NCBI GenBank assembly: GCA_022822005.1
Contig: JAJECO010000040.1
Span: forward strand, 64,090-128,089
Source of the DNA: Candidatus Poribacteria bacterium
GTDB taxonomy: Bacteria > Poribacteria > WGA-4E > PCPOR2b
Length of the DNA stretch: 64,000 nucleotides
Reading direction: 5' to 3'
In this document: positions 16,441-25,792 of the stretch, piece after piece
Numbering within the stretch: position 1 is the first letter of the stretch
Layout of the letters: every line of letters starts with the position of its first letter
Position numbers and translations under genes: made by a program
Notes under the pieces: generated by a model
Told to the model about the DNA's origin: nothing
The model's database searches: none
The model's input: only the letters and a program-made list of their open reading frames with translations

Positions 16441-16471
16441 AAGCGTCTCGGGCAACTGAGGCGCTTTTTTT
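16441..16471 (+). terminator. Rho-independent terminator of the efflux operon
   Basis: AGCGTCTC pairs with GAGGCGCT (one G-U pair) around the loop GGGCAACT, followed by a run of seven T residues. It ends the operon 11374-16422. Confidence 0.75.
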
Positions 16472-16509: not shown

Positions 16510-16538
16510 TTGACAGAGAATTCTATCCGTGATAAAAT
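16510..16538 (+). promoter_or_regulatory. Near-consensus sigma70 promoter of the formaldehyde operon
   Basis: TTGACA (16510-16515), a 17-bp spacer and TAAAAT (16533-16538). Transcription should begin near 16545, giving a leader of about 55 bases to the ATG at 16600. Confidence 0.75.
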
Positions 16539-16599
16539 CCCGGAGAAGCGTATGGAGACTGAAAAAAGGCACGAGAATATCAAAAAAGATAATGACTGT

Positions 16600-17226
16600 A
16601 TGAAATTACAGCTCGCTTTGGACTCAAGCAATAGTCAGGAAGCCAAACGCATCCTTGAGAAGGTTAGCGATCTCGTGGATATTGTCGAGGTTGGCACCCC
16701 TCTACTCATGAAAGAGGGTGTAAAGGTTGTTACAGAGATTAAGGATGCCCATCCTCAGCTTGAGGTGCTCGCGGATCTCAAGATCATGGATGCTGGCGAT
16801 ATTGAGGCGAGAATTGGGCTTGAAGCGGGTGCCGATATTGTGACGGTGCTGGGCGTGGCGCATGACGTTACGATTCGCCGTGTCGTAGACCAAGCCCGCG
16901 CCCTGAGTAAACAGGTAATGATAGATTTGATAGCAGTGGGTGATATTCAGACGCGCATCAATCAACTCGACGTTATCGCCCCAGATTACTGCTGCGTCCA
17001 TACAGCCTTCGACCTCCAAGACCATGGCATGGACCCCTTGCGAGAAATTCAGCTTGTTCAATCTGCCCTGAATCAGACCCAAATGGCAGTGGCGGGTGGG
17101 ATAAATCCGGAGATTTTACCGGATATTATAGTCTATCATCCGGCGGTCGTCATTGTGGGCGGTTTCATCACCAACCATCCAGAACCACGTCGTGCTGCGC
17201 TCGAAATAAGAGAATTGCTGACTTAA
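16600..17226 (+). CDS. hxlA: 3-hexulose-6-phosphate synthase
   Basis: A 208-residue TIM-barrel enzyme of the OMP-decarboxylase superfamily that condenses formaldehyde with ribulose 5-phosphate. The family N-terminus MKLQLALD starts at residue 1, the catalytic D-x-K-x-x-D lies at 59-64 (DLKIMD), and the phosphate-binding AGGI and VGGFI lie near the C-terminus. ATG 16600 matches the family start and fits the promoter. An in-frame ATG at 16552 has a better ribosome binding site but would leave almost no leader. The isomerase gene follows 12 bases later, the usual partner. With sarcosine oxidase in the same run, its likely job is to capture formaldehyde. A weaker alternative is 3-keto-L-gulonate-6-phosphate decarboxylase. 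Confidence 0.85.
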   Translation: MKLQLALDSSNSQEAKRILEKVSDLVDIVEVGTPLLMKEGVKVVTEIKDAHPQLEVLADLKIMDAGDIEARIGLEAGADIVTVLGVAHDVTIRRVVDQARALSKQVMIDLIAVGDIQTRINQLDVIAPDYCCVHTAFDLQDHGMDPLREIQLVQSALNQTQMAVAGGINPEILPDIIVYHPAVVIVGGFITNHPEPRRAALEIRELLT

Positions 17227-17238
17227 AAAGGGAGATCG

Positions 17239-17799
17239 GTGAATATACAAACATATATCAGCCAAATACTTGACGAGTTAGGCGAGACTGTGGGACATGT
17301 CTGCGACAGCTCGGCGGAAAAATTGGTTGATGCGATTATGGATGCCCAGATGGTCTTTGTCGCCGGTGCTGGCAGATCCGGTCTGGCGATGAAGAGTTTT
17401 GCCATGCGCTTGATGCACATAGGTTTTGAGACCTATGTCGTAGGGGAAACCGTTACACCCAGCATCACGAACAAAGATGTGCTGTTGATTGGTTCAGGTT
17501 CAGGTTCAACCAGCAGCTTGGTGACCAGCGCCAGCAAAGCCGAAGCGATTGGGGCGACCATCTGCCTCCTCACCATTGATGAAAATTCACCGATTGGCAA
17601 ATTGGCGGACGTAGTGCTCACCATCCCCGCGCCTACCCCAAAGATTGACAGAGATCTCGGTTTTCGTTCGGTGCAGCCGATGGGGGCTCTGTTTGAACAG
17701 AGCCTTTTGCTGACCTTGGACGCAATTATCCTCCTGCTGATGGAGAAAACAGGGAAAACTCCGGAGTCGATGTTTAATAGACACGCCAATCTGGAGTGA
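17239..17799 (+). CDS. hxlB: 6-phospho-3-hexuloisomerase
   Basis: A 186-residue SIS-domain protein converting hexulose 6-phosphate to fructose 6-phosphate. Visible are VFVAGAGRSGLAMKSFAMRLMHIGF (about 35-59), LLIGSGSGSTSSLV (about 81-94), the sugar-phosphate-binding Ser-rich loop, and the C-terminal stretch GALFEQSLLLTLDAI typical of PHI proteins. The start is GTG with AAGGGAG upstream. Its position directly after 3-hexulose-6-phosphate synthase is the standard ribulose monophosphate pair. The downstream amidohydrolase start overlaps its stop codon by four bases. Confidence 0.88.
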   Translation: MNIQTYISQILDELGETVGHVCDSSAEKLVDAIMDAQMVFVAGAGRSGLAMKSFAMRLMHIGFETYVVGETVTPSITNKDVLLIGSGSGSTSSLVTSASKAEAIGATICLLTIDENSPIGKLADVVLTIPAPTPKIDRDLGFRSVQPMGALFEQSLLLTLDAIILLLMEKTGKTPESMFNRHANLE

Positions 17800-18746
17800 A
17801 GGTAAAGATAGACTTGCCTATGATTGTTGACGCACATTCCCATATCTTCCCCCAAGTCCAAGGATCGACAGGGCGCGGTCCCACCCGCGGACTGGGTTAT
17901 GGCCGCATTGCCGTCGGTGATGAAGAGATCCAGCTGTTACCCCCTTACAATGAAACAACCGTATTCACACCTGAAATGCTTATATCAAATATGGAGTGGG
18001 CGGGTGTTGACAAAGCGGTGTTGCTCCAGGGACCGTTTTATGGGGAGTGCAATTCGTATGTGCTTGACGCACTGGACCGCTATCCGGATCGCTTAGTCGG
18101 GGCAGCGTACTTCGATCCGTGGGGACCGGACAGCCGCCAAGAGTTCGAGACCATTATAGCATCATCCAAGTTTCGGGTGGTCAAACTGGAATGCTCTGAA
18201 GCGACCGGATTGTGTGGCTTGCATCCTAACGCTAGGCTCGATATGCGGGAAATTGTTTGGCTTTGGGATTCGCTGGAGCGTCGCGGATTGGTGTTGACCC
18301 TTGATTTGGGGGCTATAGGCAGCCGCTCTTATCAGACCGATGCCGCGCGTACTATTGCAGAGGTACATCCGGATCTGCGAATCGTTATCGCACATCTGGG
18401 TCAGCCGAATCCGTCGGCAGAAGCAGATGCGGAACGGTGGAGTTTATGGTGGGATCAGATCAACCTTGGACTGCTACCGAACGTATGGTTTGATACCGCT
18501 GCGTTGCCAGCCTATCTGCCGGACGAGGATTTCCCCTATCCGACGGCAGAGCGGTACCTCCACCTTGCGCTTGAGCGGATTGGACCGTCGAAAATATTAT
18601 GGGGTACAGATCTGCCGGGACTGCTGCGCCACCTAAACTATCCACAACTGGTGAGGTTGGCGGAACTGCACACGCAGTCGCTTTCACCCAATGCACAGGC
18701 AATGATCCTCGGAAAAAATGCGATGCGCGTCTACGGCGTTGATTGA
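17796..18746 (+). CDS. TIM-barrel amidohydrolase (amidohydrolase 2 family)
   Basis: A 316-residue cytoplasmic hydrolase or decarboxylase. The metal-binding motif VDAHSHIF lies near residue 12, a His in IVIAHLGQP near residue 206 and an Asp in WGTDLPG near residue 271, matching the amidohydrolase-2 layout. The GTG at 17796 overlaps the preceding TGA in GTGA, indicating translational coupling; ATG at 17820 is the alternative start. Within an operon that makes and captures formaldehyde it could hydrolyse a precursor that yields sarcosine or another N-methyl compound, but this is inference. Relatives include 2-pyrone-4,6-dicarboxylate lactonase and ACMSD-type decarboxylases. Confidence 0.78.
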   Translation: MKVKIDLPMIVDAHSHIFPQVQGSTGRGPTRGLGYGRIAVGDEEIQLLPPYNETTVFTPEMLISNMEWAGVDKAVLLQGPFYGECNSYVLDALDRYPDRLVGAAYFDPWGPDSRQEFETIIASSKFRVVKLECSEATGLCGLHPNARLDMREIVWLWDSLERRGLVLTLDLGAIGSRSYQTDAARTIAEVHPDLRIVIAHLGQPNPSAEADAERWSLWWDQINLGLLPNVWFDTAALPAYLPDEDFPYPTAERYLHLALERIGPSKILWGTDLPGLLRHLNYPQLVRLAELHTQSLSPNAQAMILGKNAMRVYGVD

Positions 18747-18784
18747 ACCGGTTGGCCGGGCGGGTAAGAAAAGGGAATAATGAA

Positions 18785-19903
18785 ATGCACCGAGATGTAG
18801 AGATTTTGGTCGTCGGATTGGGGGCGATGGGAAGTGCAGCGCTATATCACCTCGCCCGTCAAGGTGCAGCACCGGTTGGCATTGATCAATACGCTATTGG
18901 CCATGCGCAGGGCAGCTCTCATGGACACTCCAGGGCGTTCCGAGTCTTCTATAATGATCCCGTATACATAACCTTGGTGAAAGCCGCTCTGCCGCTGTGG
19001 CAGGAATTAGAGACACTTTCCGGCGAACAACTGCTCATCCCTAACGGCATGTTAGCCTTTGCCAAGCCGGAGAATGAGCGTTTAGATCAAAATATCCGCA
19101 TCATGCAGGACACGAAAACGTCGCACGAGGTGTTGACTGCTGAAGAGGTCGCCGCCCGATTTCCGGCACTGCGACTTCCGGGGAATACCGTCGCTTGCTA
19201 CACTCCGGACTCGGGCTTCCTAAACCCAAGCCGCTGCGTTCGTACCCATGTATCGCAAGCCGAGCGGTTCGGGGCAACAGTTCACAGCGGAGCAACCGTC
19301 CACCATATCGACCTCAGCAAAGAACATCCAGAAGTTGAGACATCAACAGGCAGTTATTGTTGTAGACGGCTCATCGTTGCCCCCGGTCCGTGGGCTTCGC
19401 AGCTGCTGAAAGATTTGTCGCTGCCACTTCAGGTAACGCGACAGCAGAAATTTTACTTCCAGCCGCAAGAGGTGACGGCACTGTACCAGCCAGACCGTTT
19501 GCCTGTCTACGCAGATTATGATCGGGCGTACTACGGATTTCCTTACTATGGTCCCGGCATCAAGGTGGCTGATGATGGGCATGGCCCCGTGACCTCCCCC
19601 GAAACGGTTGATCGGACGTTAGACTTAGACGTACAGAACGCGTTGGCGCAGTGGATCAAAACCATTATGCCCGAAGTCAATCCGTCCTTCATTGAAGGTG
19701 CCACCTGTATGTACACGCTCACACCGGATCACGACTTTCTTATCGGTGATCATCCGCTGAATCCAAACATCTTAGTCGGGGTAGGATTCTCGGGACATGG
19801 CTTTAAGTTTTCAACAATTGTAGGTAAGATTCTCGCTGAGCTCGCCACTGACGGCAAAACAGATTATCCAATCGACAAATTCCGACTGAACCGATTCGGA
19901 TAG
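18785..19903 (+). CDS. Monomeric sarcosine oxidase (N-methyl amino acid oxidase)
   Basis: A 372-residue flavoenzyme that oxidises N-methyl amino acids to the free amine, formaldehyde and H2O2. The FAD-binding GxGxxG lies at 11-16. GSSHGHSRAFR at 43-53 carries the Arg pair of the family. GIKVADDGHG supplies Lys260, equivalent to the O2-activating Lys, and Cys308 in CMYTLTPDHDF matches the residue that covalently holds FAD. ATG 18785 is chosen because AAAGGGA lies upstream; it starts 38 bases after the amidohydrolase. Its product formaldehyde is the substrate of the first gene in the run. N-methyltryptophan oxidase is the nearest alternative. No catalase gene is adjacent. Confidence 0.87.
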   Translation: MHRDVEILVVGLGAMGSAALYHLARQGAAPVGIDQYAIGHAQGSSHGHSRAFRVFYNDPVYITLVKAALPLWQELETLSGEQLLIPNGMLAFAKPENERLDQNIRIMQDTKTSHEVLTAEEVAARFPALRLPGNTVACYTPDSGFLNPSRCVRTHVSQAERFGATVHSGATVHHIDLSKEHPEVETSTGSYCCRRLIVAPGPWASQLLKDLSLPLQVTRQQKFYFQPQEVTALYQPDRLPVYADYDRAYYGFPYYGPGIKVADDGHGPVTSPETVDRTLDLDVQNALAQWIKTIMPEVNPSFIEGATCMYTLTPDHDFLIGDHPLNPNILVGVGFSGHGFKFSTIVGKILAELATDGKTDYPIDKFRLNRFG

Positions 19904-19988: not shown

Positions 19989-21053
19989 ATGGATGCTAAA
20001 ACTTATCGTACCGGCATTATTGGCTGTGGTGGGATGGGGCGCGCACATTCGACTGCTTACACGCAAAACCCGGCGACAGAATTGGTCGCGGCGATGGATG
20101 TGAACGTGGAATCGGCGAAACGCCTTTCCGAAGAATTCTCTGTTCCCGCTGCATACACTGACTATAACGAGATGTTAGAAAAAGAGGCACTCGATATTGT
20201 CAGTATCACGACATGGCAGGGAGTCCGGGCCGAGATTACGGTTGCCGCGGCAAAGGCAGGAGTCAAAGGAATTATCGGTGAAAAACCGATGGCGGCATCC
20301 TTGGGTGAAGCGGACACGATGATTTCGGTATGTGAGGAACACGGTGCGAAGCTGGTTATTGGGCATAACGGACGCTTCAATCCGGCAAACACCGAGATTC
20401 GGAGACTGATCCAAGATGGTGCCATCGGACAACCAACGTTACTCCATCGGAGGTCAAAGCCGAATGCTGGTTTGCTCAATATCGGCACACACGCCATTGA
20501 TGGGATGCGATACCATCTGTCGGACCCGGAAACACTCTGGGTAATTGGTCAGGTTGCTCGAACCACGAACAGGTGGGAACGTCGTACGCTGTGCGAAGAT
20601 CTATGTATGGGGTTAATCTGCTTCGAGGGCGGTGCGCGCGGCATCTATGAAAGCGATCTTCCCGAACCCGCAATTTCGGCAGCGATAGTTTCTGGAACAG
20701 ATGGACAGATCAATATGGGAGAAGATGGGACTGTGCTCCTCCAGAATAACGGAGCGAGCGGCTGGCAGGAGATTCAGCCGCGTCCAGAACCGAGAGATCA
20801 GTACCAGGAACTCATCGACTGGATGGAGGGGAAGATTCCCAAACATCGAAGTACAGGGCGACAGGCACGGTATACAATGGAAATCATGATGGCGATCTAC
20901 GAGTCGTTACGGATCAAGAATGTGGTCACGATGCCACTTGAAACCAGCGAATCACCGCTTGAACTGCTGATAAAGGAGGGTGTTTTCCCGGACCTGACGG
21001 AGAACCCTTACGATATTCGGAGACCTTTCCCAGAACAGGAAAAGCGCGCATAA
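19989..21053 (+). CDS. Gfo/Idh/MocA family oxidoreductase
   Basis: A 354-residue NAD(P)-dependent sugar-type dehydrogenase. The Rossmann motif GCGGMGRAHS lies at about 11-20, the catalytic GEKP near residue 97 and GTHAIDGMRYH near residue 168, so both usual catalytic residues are present. GGAGG lies 8 bases before the ATG. A canonical PhyH gene follows 30 bases downstream on the same strand and is probably cotranscribed. The substrate is a polyol, inositol or sugar derivative in this family; it cannot be specified. Confidence 0.85.
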   Translation: MDAKTYRTGIIGCGGMGRAHSTAYTQNPATELVAAMDVNVESAKRLSEEFSVPAAYTDYNEMLEKEALDIVSITTWQGVRAEITVAAAKAGVKGIIGEKPMAASLGEADTMISVCEEHGAKLVIGHNGRFNPANTEIRRLIQDGAIGQPTLLHRRSKPNAGLLNIGTHAIDGMRYHLSDPETLWVIGQVARTTNRWERRTLCEDLCMGLICFEGGARGIYESDLPEPAISAAIVSGTDGQINMGEDGTVLLQNNGASGWQEIQPRPEPRDQYQELIDWMEGKIPKHRSTGRQARYTMEIMMAIYESLRIKNVVTMPLETSESPLELLIKEGVFPDLTENPYDIRRPFPEQEKRA

Positions 21054-21083: not shown

Positions 21084-21923
21084 ATGAAACTCACCGAACA
21101 ACAGATCAATTTCTTCAACACCTTTGGCTACTTAGCGTTTCCCAACCTCTTCTCGGCTGATGAGGTTGCTTGGATTATCGAAGAATTTGACTTCTCCATC
21201 CAAAACTTTGGTGAAGGTAAAGCGCACGATGGTTCAAAGCGAACCATGTTTGGGGGTCCGATTGAGCATCGACCAAGGCTCTGTTCCTTGCTAGATGATC
21301 CACGTGTGCTTGGTGTTGCCGGTGGGGTTTTGGGTGAGGATTTCAACTATGCCAGCGGCGATGGGAATTACTATACTGGCGACACGGGTTGGCACCCGGA
21401 TGGCAACTGGGGACAACTCTTTTCCTGTAAAATTGCGTTCTATCTCGATCCACTGACAACCGATACCGGTTGCCTGCGAGTTATCCCCGGCAGCCAACGT
21501 CCGGACCATTTTGTAAGGGCAGAAGAGATAAACCCGAACGAATCGGAGGAACTTTTCGGCGTTCCACCACAGGAGTTTCCCGGCAGTGTTGCGTTGGAAA
21601 CGAATCCGGGTGATCTGGTCATTTTTAATCACGACACCTATCACGCATCTTTTGGGGGCGGCAGGCGGCGACGGATGTTCACCATGAACCTGACCCGCCA
21701 CTGCACCACTGAGCCGGACCTGGCGACTTTGCGTCGGTACTTGAGTATCCACTCTCCCGGTGGCTACAACGTTGACACCGGTGCCAGCATGTATTATCCA
21801 ACCATACTCGATACCGCCGACGATAACAGAAAAATCCATTTGTGGCAGTGTATCGAGATCCACGACGAGCTGTTTCCACATCTGGCTCAGAAGGCTTATT
21901 CAAACTTGCGCCCAATTTCTTGA
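21084..21923 (+). CDS. Phytanoyl-CoA dioxygenase family protein, canonical triad
   Basis: A 279-residue Fe(II)/2-oxoglutarate oxygenase. The facial triad is complete: His104 and Asp106 in TGWHPDGNW and His187 in HDTYHASFGGG. Arginines at 194-197 can bind 2-oxoglutarate. ATG 21084 is selected because GGAGG lies 6 bases upstream. The order gfo-phyH is seen again at 61.8-63.7 kb, where the protein is its closest relative in the window. The hydroxylated substrate is unknown; in this family it need not be phytanoyl-CoA. Confidence 0.87.
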   Translation: MKLTEQQINFFNTFGYLAFPNLFSADEVAWIIEEFDFSIQNFGEGKAHDGSKRTMFGGPIEHRPRLCSLLDDPRVLGVAGGVLGEDFNYASGDGNYYTGDTGWHPDGNWGQLFSCKIAFYLDPLTTDTGCLRVIPGSQRPDHFVRAEEINPNESEELFGVPPQEFPGSVALETNPGDLVIFNHDTYHASFGGGRRRRMFTMNLTRHCTTEPDLATLRRYLSIHSPGGYNVDTGASMYYPTILDTADDNRKIHLWQCIEIHDELFPHLAQKAYSNLRPIS

Positions 21924-21945
21924 GAAATCAATACAACATCTCAAG
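21919..21945. terminator. Inverted repeat between convergent genes
   Basis: CTTGAGA (21919-21925) and TCTCAAG (21939-21945) form a perfect 7-bp stem spanning the stop codons of two convergent genes. There is no clear T-tract, so the terminator role is tentative. Confidence 0.35.
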
Positions 21946-22459
21946 CCGCTTTAGGGAGGCATTGGGACAATAACTTATCAATGTCTTCGCGTTGGTCCCG
22001 TTGAAATTTGTACCCTTCAAGCCACTGTGGGAAGCTGTCACCCCGCACATGTAAGCCGAGGATATACGCTTCTGTCCCCAAGCCGAGTGTATAGTCCCCT
22101 TCCTCCTTCCATTGGAAGGCGTGTAGGTCTTTCCACGTTATAAATCGTGCTGCGTAGTAGAGGCCCTCTTCTGTGATTACAAAATGGTCTACGGAGAACA
22201 GAAAAAACAACCAAAACATTAACCCTGGCATTAAAAGCATCTGCGGTAAAGATGTCCAGCCGTTTTTTATCACCAACATGATTGGGACAAGAATAGCGCA
22301 GGTAGAAAAAACGATGCCAAGTCCCAAAGATACCTTGTAGAGTCTTGGGTAGAGTTTTGATGTGGGCAGATGGTACAAGATTTGTCCCTTTGTTTTCCGC
22401 TGCCACAATCGATAGCAAGGTACTGTCACCAAAATATCAAGCAAACGATTAACTGACAT
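21941..22459 (-). CDS. Membrane protein with PH-like C-terminal domain
   Basis: A 172-residue protein. Two membrane segments (about 46-66 and 72-92) are followed by a soluble domain with the pattern DHFVITEEGLYYAARFITWKDLHAFQW, which resembles the bacterial PH-like or DUF5673-type domains that follow paired membrane helices. A good AAAGGAGG precedes the ATG. It is convergent with the PhyH gene. Function unknown; the family resemblance is by pattern only. Confidence 0.6.
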   Translation of the reverse strand: MSVNRLLDILVTVPCYRLWQRKTKGQILYHLPTSKLYPRLYKVSLGLGIVFSTCAILVPIMLVIKNGWTSLPQMLLMPGLMFWLFFLFSVDHFVITEEGLYYAARFITWKDLHAFQWKEEGDYTLGLGTEAYILGLHVRGDSFPQWLEGYKFQRDQREDIDKLLSQCLPKAA

Positions 22460-22635
22460 AACTCGTACCTCCTTTAGCGATTGTCATTGGAATTCTGCTG
22501 CCATAGCAAGTTAGGCACAGCTTCTTCCATTTATCAATTGGTTTTAGTGTATCATAAAACTAGCTCAAATGGAGCGAAAAAAGATCACAAAGAACAATAG
22601 CAGCCAATGATGTGGACACAATAAGAGGAAAGGAG

Positions 22636-23376
22636 ATGCAGTTTTTTCCCCAACCCAAAAAGGGGATCTCCACTGCAAAGACTGGAATGAATTTTGAAAA
22701 TATTAGGCAGCGTCTGTTGGCACTCGACACTGCCTGCGTATGTGATGGCAATAAGGCAGGGCGAGCCGCCGACCCCACGGTTACGGAGCTAAGGGTTATT
22801 GATCCCTCTATCCGCCCTATCCGAACTGGACTTAAACTGGTCGGGCAGGCACACACGGTAACCTGTCATGAAGATTTTCTCACGGTGATCAAAGGGTTGC
22901 GGGATGCCGAACCGGGTGAGGTGCTTGTGATTGACACTCAGGGGAGTCGTCGTGCGGTGGCGGGTGAACTGTTTCCCACGGAGGCAGCACGGAAGGGATT
23001 GGCAGGCATTGTCATTGATGGTCCTTGCCGCGACACCAAAACGATCCGGACTCTGGATGTGCCTTACTATGCACGGTCTTTCAACCCGATCGCGGGGACA
23101 ACATCCAAGATCTTCGAGACACAGATCCCCATCACCTGCGGTGGTGTTATTGTGAATCCGGGGGATATTATCTTCGGCGACGATGATGGGCTTATTATTG
23201 GATCCATTGATGAATTGTCAGCAGCGATACCAATTGCTGAAGAGATTCAACGGAAGGAAGATCTGATGCTAAAGCAGATGGCAGCGGGTGTAAGTCTGTT
23301 TGAGATGTTGAATTTCGAGGAACATTACGCAGCGGTATGTGCCGGAGAAGAGAGCAAGTTAGAATTCACAGTTTAA
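22636..23376 (+). CDS. RraA-like / HMG-CHA aldolase family protein
   Basis: A 246-residue protein of the RraA/DlpA family (class II pyruvate aldolases and RNase E inhibitor relatives). Visible are LDTACVCDG near the N-terminus, VIDTQGSRRAVAGELFPTEAARKGLAGIVIDGPCRDT in the centre (the G-E-L-x-A-x-G-like and D-G-x-x-R-D motifs) and GDIIFGDDDGLII near the C-terminus. ATG 22636 is preferred, with AGAGGA 7 bases upstream; GTG 22612 lacks a site. In a catabolic context an aldolase on a 4-hydroxy-2-oxo acid is more likely than RNase regulation. It converges on a Gfo/Idh/MocA gene. Confidence 0.8.
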   Translation: MQFFPQPKKGISTAKTGMNFENIRQRLLALDTACVCDGNKAGRAADPTVTELRVIDPSIRPIRTGLKLVGQAHTVTCHEDFLTVIKGLRDAEPGEVLVIDTQGSRRAVAGELFPTEAARKGLAGIVIDGPCRDTKTIRTLDVPYYARSFNPIAGTTSKIFETQIPITCGGVIVNPGDIIFGDDDGLIIGSIDELSAAIPIAEEIQRKEDLMLKQMAAGVSLFEMLNFEEHYAAVCAGEESKLEFTV

Positions 23377-24525: not shown

Positions 24526-24554
24526 TTGACAAGACCCATAAATCGTGCTATAAT
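24526..24554 (+). promoter_or_regulatory. Consensus sigma70 promoter
   Basis: TTGACA (24526-24531), a 17-bp spacer and TATAAT (24549-24554): both hexamers are perfect. The leader to the ATG at 24620 contains a small stem AACCCG (24565-24570) with CGGGTT (24584-24589). Confidence 0.85.
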
Positions 24555-24619: not shown

Positions 24620-25792
24620 ATGCCACTTGGAAGAAAAATACGTTACGGAATGGTCGGCGGCGGTCCAGACGCATTCATAGGCGCGGTACACCGCAAAGCT
24701 GCGGCACTCGATGGGGAAATCGACCTTGTTGCCGGAGCGTTCTCCGCATCACCTGAAAAATCGCAGCAACAGGGGGCGAAACTGTTACTTGACTCTAACC
24801 GCGTATACAATTCATATCAGGAGATGGCGGAAAAAGAGAGCGCATTGTCAGAGGGCGAGCGTATCGACTTCGTGTCCATTGTGACACCAAACCACGTTCA
24901 TTTCGATGTCGCCAAAACATTCATCAAAGCAGGATTTCATGTCGTTTGCGATAAGCCGATGACGACGACGTTAGAAGATGCGGAAGCACTCTGTGGACTG
25001 GTAAAACAGCACGATACAATCTTTGCGCTGACGCATAACTACACGGGTTATCCGATGGTGAAGCAAGCCCGTGAGTTGGTATCACAAGGGACGCTCGGAT
25101 CGGTTCGGAAAATTGTTGTGGAATATCCACAGGGGTGGTTAGCGACGTTCTTAGAGGGAGAGGGGGCAAAGCAGGCGGTCTGGCGGACAGATCCAAGCCA
25201 AGCGGGGGTTTCGTCCTGTATCGGGGACATTGGATCGCACGCAGAAAATCTTGCCCATTACATTACCGGTTTAGAGTTAGAGGAGATCTGTGCAGACCTG
25301 ACCACCTTCGTGGAAGGGAGACTGCTCGAAGATGATGGGAACATCTTAGTCCACTATAAAGGCGGTGCACGGGGAGTGTTGTACGCATCGCAAATTTCTG
25401 TTGGCGAAGAAAATAATCTTCGTATCCGCGTCTATGGTACGAAAGCTTCACTTGAATGGCACCAAGAGAATCCGAATTATCTCTCTGTCCGTTACCCCGA
25501 TGGTCCTGAGCATGTGTATAAGCGCGGTAATGATTACGTTGCCCCGATTGCGGCGCATAACTCACGCCTGCCATTTGGACATCCAGAAGCGTTCATAGAA
25601 GCGTTTGCAAATGTCTATGTCAACGCTGCACGTACGCTTGCCGCAAAACTTTCCGGCGAAACACCAGACGCGTTCGATACGGATTATCCAACGGTGCAGG
25701 ACGGTGCACGAGGCGTCCACTTCATTCATAAAGCGGTAGAAAGTGGAAATAAACGGGGATGGGTAGACGTGAGCTATACACCACCAGCATAA
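24620..25792 (+). CDS. Gfo/Idh/MocA family oxidoreductase
   Basis: A 390-residue dehydrogenase. The N-terminus RYGMVGGGPDAFIGAVHR is a variant of the Rossmann loop typical of a subgroup of this family. CDKPMT near residue 115 holds the catalytic Lys, and GDIGSHAENLAHYITG near residue 203 the His motif. TAGGAG lies 10 bases before the ATG. It stands alone between a perfect promoter and a strong terminator, so it is likely well expressed as a single gene. Substrate unknown. Confidence 0.86.
   Translation: MPLGRKIRYGMVGGGPDAFIGAVHRKAAALDGEIDLVAGAFSASPEKSQQQGAKLLLDSNRVYNSYQEMAEKESALSEGERIDFVSIVTPNHVHFDVAKTFIKAGFHVVCDKPMTTTLEDAEALCGLVKQHDTIFALTHNYTGYPMVKQARELVSQGTLGSVRKIVVEYPQGWLATFLEGEGAKQAVWRTDPSQAGVSSCIGDIGSHAENLAHYITGLELEEICADLTTFVEGRLLEDDGNILVHYKGGARGVLYASQISVGEENNLRIRVYGTKASLEWHQENPNYLSVRYPDGPEHVYKRGNDYVAPIAAHNSRLPFGHPEAFIEAFANVYVNAARTLAAKLSGETPDAFDTDYPTVQDGARGVHFIHKAVESGNKRGWVDVSYTPPA

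Follow-up and report, generated by a model that had tools for sequence, protein, structure and literature searches.

Why should an uncultured bacterium place a formaldehyde-fixing enzyme pair next to a flavin oxidase? The question is raised by a 64,000-nucleotide stretch of a Candidatus Poribacteria bacterium genome (GenBank assembly GCA_022822005.1, contig JAJECO010000040.1, positions 64,090 to 128,089 of the forward strand; hereafter the window), in which genes for 3-hexulose-6-phosphate synthase (HPS) and 6-phospho-3-hexuloisomerase (PHI) precede genes for an amidohydrolase-superfamily protein (AHY) and a flavin adenine dinucleotide (FAD)-dependent amine oxidase (SOX) of the monomeric sarcosine oxidase/N-methyltryptophan oxidase (MSOX/MTOX) family. 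A first-pass annotation, made from the sequence alone, had described the four genes as an operon in which sarcosine oxidase makes formaldehyde and HPS and PHI fix it. With modest confidence, we read the locus as one transcribed unit in which a substrate is oxidatively demethylated and the formaldehyde is trapped on the spot. Gene identities, catalytic residues, the conserved promoter and the conserved gene order can be read directly; from them we infer the substrate, the release of formaldehyde, a single transcript and the functions of the four remaining genes in what is probably a seven-gene unit.

A predicted formaldehyde-fixing pair heads the probable unit

The four genes lie on the plus strand in the order originally described, preceded by a terminator and a promoter:

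16441 to 16471, plus strand: intrinsic terminator with a 9-bp stem and T run, read from the sequence, which closes the upstream ABC/MFP unit
16510 to 16538, plus strand: sigma-70-type promoter, TTGACA-17-TAAAAT with TG before the -10 box, matching 11 of 12 consensus positions
16600 to 17226, plus strand: HPS (hxlA); TIGR03128, 239 bits against a cut-off of 200; HPS-type diagnostic residues
17239 to 17799, plus strand: PHI (hxlB); TIGR03127, 238 bits against a cut-off of 160
17820 to 18746, plus strand: Amidohydro_2 protein (AHY), a putative COG3618-like lactonase or ACMSD-like decarboxylase; PF04909, fold and conserved ATG; open reading frame (ORF) readable from GTG 17796
18785 to 19903, plus strand: MSOX/MTOX-family FAD amine oxidase (SOX); NF008425, PDB and fold matches, and residue alignment

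HPS and PHI both exceed the curated cut-offs of the NCBIfam HxlA and HxlB equivalog models, and sequence supports their assignment to the formaldehyde-fixing type. Residues that separate HPS from 3-keto-L-gulonate-6-phosphate decarboxylase (KGPDC; Glu112, Arg139 and Thr169) have been tabulated (PMC5980557). Judged against Table 1 of that paper by alignment to 3ajx, 3f4w and SgbH, the window HPS has the HPS-type GTP motif (Pro after GT), Asp109, Phe rather than Arg at 137, and Ala164, and a KGPDC function was rejected on these residues. The predicted activity of HPS is condensation of formaldehyde with ribulose 5-phosphate (Ru5P). Its gene starts at ATG 16600, position 16510 being part of the -35 box that had been misread as a TTG start. 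The best PDB match of PHI is Bacillus subtilis YckF/HxlB (1m3s). Genes for glucose-6-phosphate dehydrogenase (G6PDH), transketolase and a transaldolase-family protein are present in the genome, which gives the cell a route to regenerate Ru5P and makes it unnecessary to suppose that HPS runs in reverse. For glutathione-dependent formaldehyde dehydrogenase no match in the genome reaches the cut-off, and a PF00199 search found no heme catalase, other catalase types not having been searched.

The oxidase keeps the catalytic set of sarcosine oxidases and changes the pocket

Counting from ATG 18785, we confirmed the covalent-FAD Cys308 reported for the oxidase (codon 19706-19708). The SOX model has a pLDDT (predicted local distance difference test score) of 84, and its nearest solved relatives by both sequence and fold are the Thermomicrobium roseum and Bacillus sarcosine oxidases (PDB and fold matches 7exs and MSOX). 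Against the N-methyl-L-tryptophan oxidase model NF008425, SOX scores 357.6 bits (cut-off 257), a result that does not itself establish the substrate, and against the monomeric sarcosine oxidase model soxA_mon (TIGR01377) it scores 278.5 bits, below the curated cut-off of 479.65.

The active site of sarcosine oxidase comprises Arg52, Tyr55, Phe100, Met245, Tyr254, His269 and Lys348; Arg, Tyr and Lys bind the substrate carboxylate, and replacing residue 245 changes which of sarcosine and N-methyl-tryptophan is preferred (PMC12582975). In the alignment (MSOX numbering), SOX has the equivalents of Cys308, Lys265, Arg52, Tyr55, Tyr254 and Lys348, the last five conserved in nine of nine orthologues. 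We take Lys265 to be the O2-activating residue. Among Phe100, Met245, Tyr254 and His269, only Tyr254 is kept, the others being changed to Arg, Ala and Asp (F100R, M245A and H269D). Across the nine orthologues, position 245 is Ala, or Gly or Ser in two, position 269 is Asp in all, and position 100 is Arg in eight, within a loosely aligned region. The earlier name of sarcosine oxidase therefore holds as regards the catalytic set, which is that of sarcosine-type oxidases, but not as regards sarcosine as the substrate, since the pocket residues differ. The alterations at 245, 269 and 100 point instead to another N-methyl amino acid, one that probably exceeds sarcosine in bulk or polarity.

A second and more widespread oxidase paralogue, 37-40% identical, occurs in a cluster with creatininase-family and PhyH genes in three genomes (L099:7068-9955, which is contig C20 of the window's own genome, G000; L114:8439-11328; and L115:8744-11625). 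The own-genome copy of this paralogue keeps His269.

A conserved promoter and terminator mark the probable start of the unit

The near-consensus promoter of the first-pass annotation was borne out by comparison with relatives: in six of six species of the genus the -35 and -10 boxes are identical, although the spacer varies. The adjoining upstream terminator is likewise unchanged in its stem core and T run. Because boxes and terminator are invariant together, the promoter is more than a chance match. The terminator, recognized by reading the sequence and absent from the pattern-scan list, lies at the end of the upstream MFP gene, ahead of the promoter.

Within the unit, HPS and PHI are separated by 12 bases, and 38 bases separate the AHY stop from the oxidase ATG (one species has an insertion there). 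A four-base overlap of PHI with AHY had been described, which requires a start at GTG 17796; relatives do not conserve this codon, and in one of them a single base is deleted there. The conserved start is ATG 17820, and the gap between the two genes is therefore 20 bases. Translational coupling through a four-base overlap was accordingly rejected.

The AHY protein resembles lactonases and decarboxylases

"Amidohydrolase" is here a superfamily name and does not by itself point to amide hydrolysis. PF04909 is the sole family match of AHY, which belongs to neither the creatininase nor the hydantoinase-type families, and no solved-structure relative was found by sequence. Its model (pLDDT 90) finds 4i6k, 4dlf, LigI and ACMSD as best folds and resembles COG3618 amidohydrolases, 2-pyrone-4,6-dicarboxylate hydrolase and ACMSD-type decarboxylases, with COG3618 lactonases closest. 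This family and fold lend no support to the proposal that AHY produces or modifies the N-methyl substrate; a 64% identical relative (G016) also sits in a different context, beside an HpcH/HpaI aldolase and a short-chain dehydrogenase/reductase in a genome that lacks both HPS and this oxidase. Hydrolysis of creatinine or N-methylhydantoin was rejected, having neither family nor fold support.

Downstream genes and a possible second source of formaldehyde

The operon probably extends past position 19903 to seven genes, which would be carried on a single transcript. The additional features are as follows:

19989 to 21053, plus strand: Gfo/Idh/MocA-family oxidoreductase (GFO1), probable fifth gene; PF01408; position conserved in six species
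21084 to 21923, plus strand: PhyH-family Fe(II)/2-oxoglutarate dioxygenase (PHYH) with an HPD...H triad, probable sixth gene; PF05721; ORF from 21069
21941 to 22459, minus strand: small ORF carried by a lineage-specific insertion, which interrupts the ancestral unit and, of the species compared, occurs in the window and G021 only
22687 to 23376, plus strand: RraA-like aldolase (RRAA), ancestral seventh gene; PF03737; ORF from 22612

GFO1 begins 85 bases after SOX, and a pattern scan predicted no strong plus-strand terminator from SOX to PHYH. In every species with a complete region, GFO1, PHYH and RRAA lie downstream of SOX on the same strand. RRAA follows PHYH by about 30 bp in three species without the insertion, which in the window occupies 21930-22650 and carries a 172-residue ORF. 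Beyond the unit, a perfect 12 of 12 promoter (TTGACA-17-TATAAT, 24526-24554) precedes the next gene group, which comprises a Gfo/Idh/MocA gene at 24620, a TIM-barrel gene and an isochorismatase-like gene.

PHYH is a possible second formaldehyde source that the first-pass annotation had overlooked, and it supplies the strongest alternative, namely that formaldehyde comes mainly from oxidative O- or N-demethylation by this dioxygenase. In that case the substrate of the flavin oxidase would be a secondary amine or a cyclic imino acid, and its reaction would release no formaldehyde. PHYH carries its Fe(II) triad, and the PhyH-family enzyme FJS demethylates 2'-O-methyl nucleosides with release of formaldehyde (PMC12709175). 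The pocket of SOX is altered, sarcosine oxidase can slowly oxidise cyclic imino acids such as proline (PMC12582975), and in two genomes without HPS (G013 and G060) a 62% identical oxidase relative lies near a 68% identical PHYH relative. However, PHYH has only a weak match to ectoine hydroxylase among solved structures and no detectable match to PHYHD1 among PDB sequences, and SOX exceeds the N-methyl-tryptophan oxidase cut-off. Proximity of oxidase and PHYH is also weak evidence, because the window's own 6-Mb genome (G000) holds about 120 PhyH-family candidates. We consider this alternative unlikely. Quite unlikely, too, is the broader proposal that the seven genes together break down a methylated amino-acid conjugate by a pathway not described before, with PHYH and SOX as two different oxygen-dependent demethylases that would each release formaldehyde, and HPS and PHI recycling it into sugar phosphate.

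Distribution among relatives

Within the order, HPS above cut-off occurs only in the six species of the genus and in one further genome (G017), and all seven of these genomes carry the oxidase at 70% identity or more. At 60% identity or more, the oxidase is found in the same seven genomes and in G060 and G013. PHI above cut-off was found only in the six congeners in a sample of ten genomes; G017 has a 73% identical PHI adjoining its HPS. All six congeners share the operon gene order, which contig breaks interrupt in G020 and G019. A scan of a genome collection with AHY returned one close relative, a Candidatus Poribacteria record matching G021 that has the same cluster and a 93% identical AHY, which places the window in this phylum, and one distant, unrelated match. 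Counted by genus, the co-occurrence of HPS and oxidase is no more than suggestive.

In G017 (L041:3257-6167), HPS and PHI are followed by a luciferase-like FMN monooxygenase, possibly another formaldehyde producer, and a flavin reductase. Elsewhere in the phylum, HPS-RraA fusions occur without an adjoining PHI (L116:6327-7613 and L117:5549-6835), one of them next to TIM-barrel and Gfo/Idh/MocA genes.

Taken as a unit for demethylation with capture in place, the locus would work as follows. The flavin oxidase would convert an N-methyl amino acid to an amine, formaldehyde and H2O2; HPS would condense the formaldehyde with Ru5P, and PHI would convert the product to fructose 6-phosphate. What remains of the substrate would probably be handled by the lactonase- or decarboxylase-like AHY together with GFO1, PHYH and RRAA, and PHYH may perform a second oxidative demethylation. 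Several observations count against this scheme. The three pocket changes leave demethylation as the reaction of SOX uncertain, and the linkage of HPS with the oxidase is seen in only one genus, in which unrelated flanking genes are also syntenic. Moreover, HPS and oxidase are on different contigs in G017, and G060 and G013 carry the oxidase without HPS.

Some of these observations lend weight to the view that the genes are inherited neighbours only, a formaldehyde-protection pair beside an unrelated catabolic cluster with no functional coupling: conservation is within one genus, where protein identity is high and unrelated flanks are conserved too, and the parts are found separately in G017, G060, G013 and G016. 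Against this view, the genes share a strand, have only short gaps between them with no strong terminator, and stand behind a promoter and terminator that are both conserved; in G017, the second lineage with HPS and PHI, the pair again adjoins an oxidative enzyme. We regard inheritance alone as quite unlikely. Slightly less likely still is that HPS and PHI serve sugar metabolism (sugar-phosphate aldol chemistry, or archaeal-like reverse synthesis of Ru5P) alongside dehydrogenase, RraA-like and TIM-barrel genes with the oxidase incidental, for although related class members have HPS-RraA fusions, one beside the same kinds of genes as the window cluster, these fusions reach only about 37% identity and the stretches read around them contain no PHI, G6PDH makes the reverse direction unneeded for pentoses, and the adjacent PHI and HPS-type residues fit ribulose monophosphate chemistry.

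Relation to known systems

The demethylation unit that we favour has partial precedents. In B. subtilis, the hxlAB pair of the HxlR-regulated formaldehyde response likewise has adjoining HPS and PHI of the same families, and the window PHI is closest to YckF; no HxlR gene is seen beside the window operon, and the B. subtilis operon is not known to include oxidase genes. Monomeric sarcosine oxidase and SolA share with SOX the fold, the covalent Cys, the O2-activating Lys and the carboxylate-binding Arg, Tyr and Lys, but are 26-36% identical to it and differ at Met245, His269 and Phe100. The 2'-O-methylnucleoside demethylases FJS and PHYHD1 are PhyH-family Fe(II)/2-oxoglutarate enzymes like PHYH, which, lacking a detectable PHYHD1 match, probably belongs to a different subfamily.

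The closest precedent in function is Burkholderia cepacia TM1, a non-methylotroph in which HPS and PHI trap the formaldehyde from demethylation during growth on vanillate (reviewed in PMC8879981). Disposal of formaldehyde through HPS and PHI during demethylation would be common to both systems; in TM1 the source is O-demethylation of vanillate, whereas in the window the genes suggest a flavin amine oxidase, possibly with a dioxygenase, within the unit itself. In line with the earlier statement that the linkage is not a described module, a literature search for HPS linked to sarcosine oxidase found no paper on it, but trapping by HPS and PHI during demethylation in a non-methylotroph is known. 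What is new is most likely the combination of HPS and PHI with an altered-pocket MSOX/MTOX-family oxidase behind one conserved promoter, the trapping principle being familiar. If this reading is correct, an uncultured lineage has linked the demethylation of an amine directly to the trapping of formaldehyde, N-methylated amino acids are a likely food source for it, and the operon context would offer a genetic handle for finding what this oxidase, with its pocket diverged from that of sarcosine oxidase, acts on.

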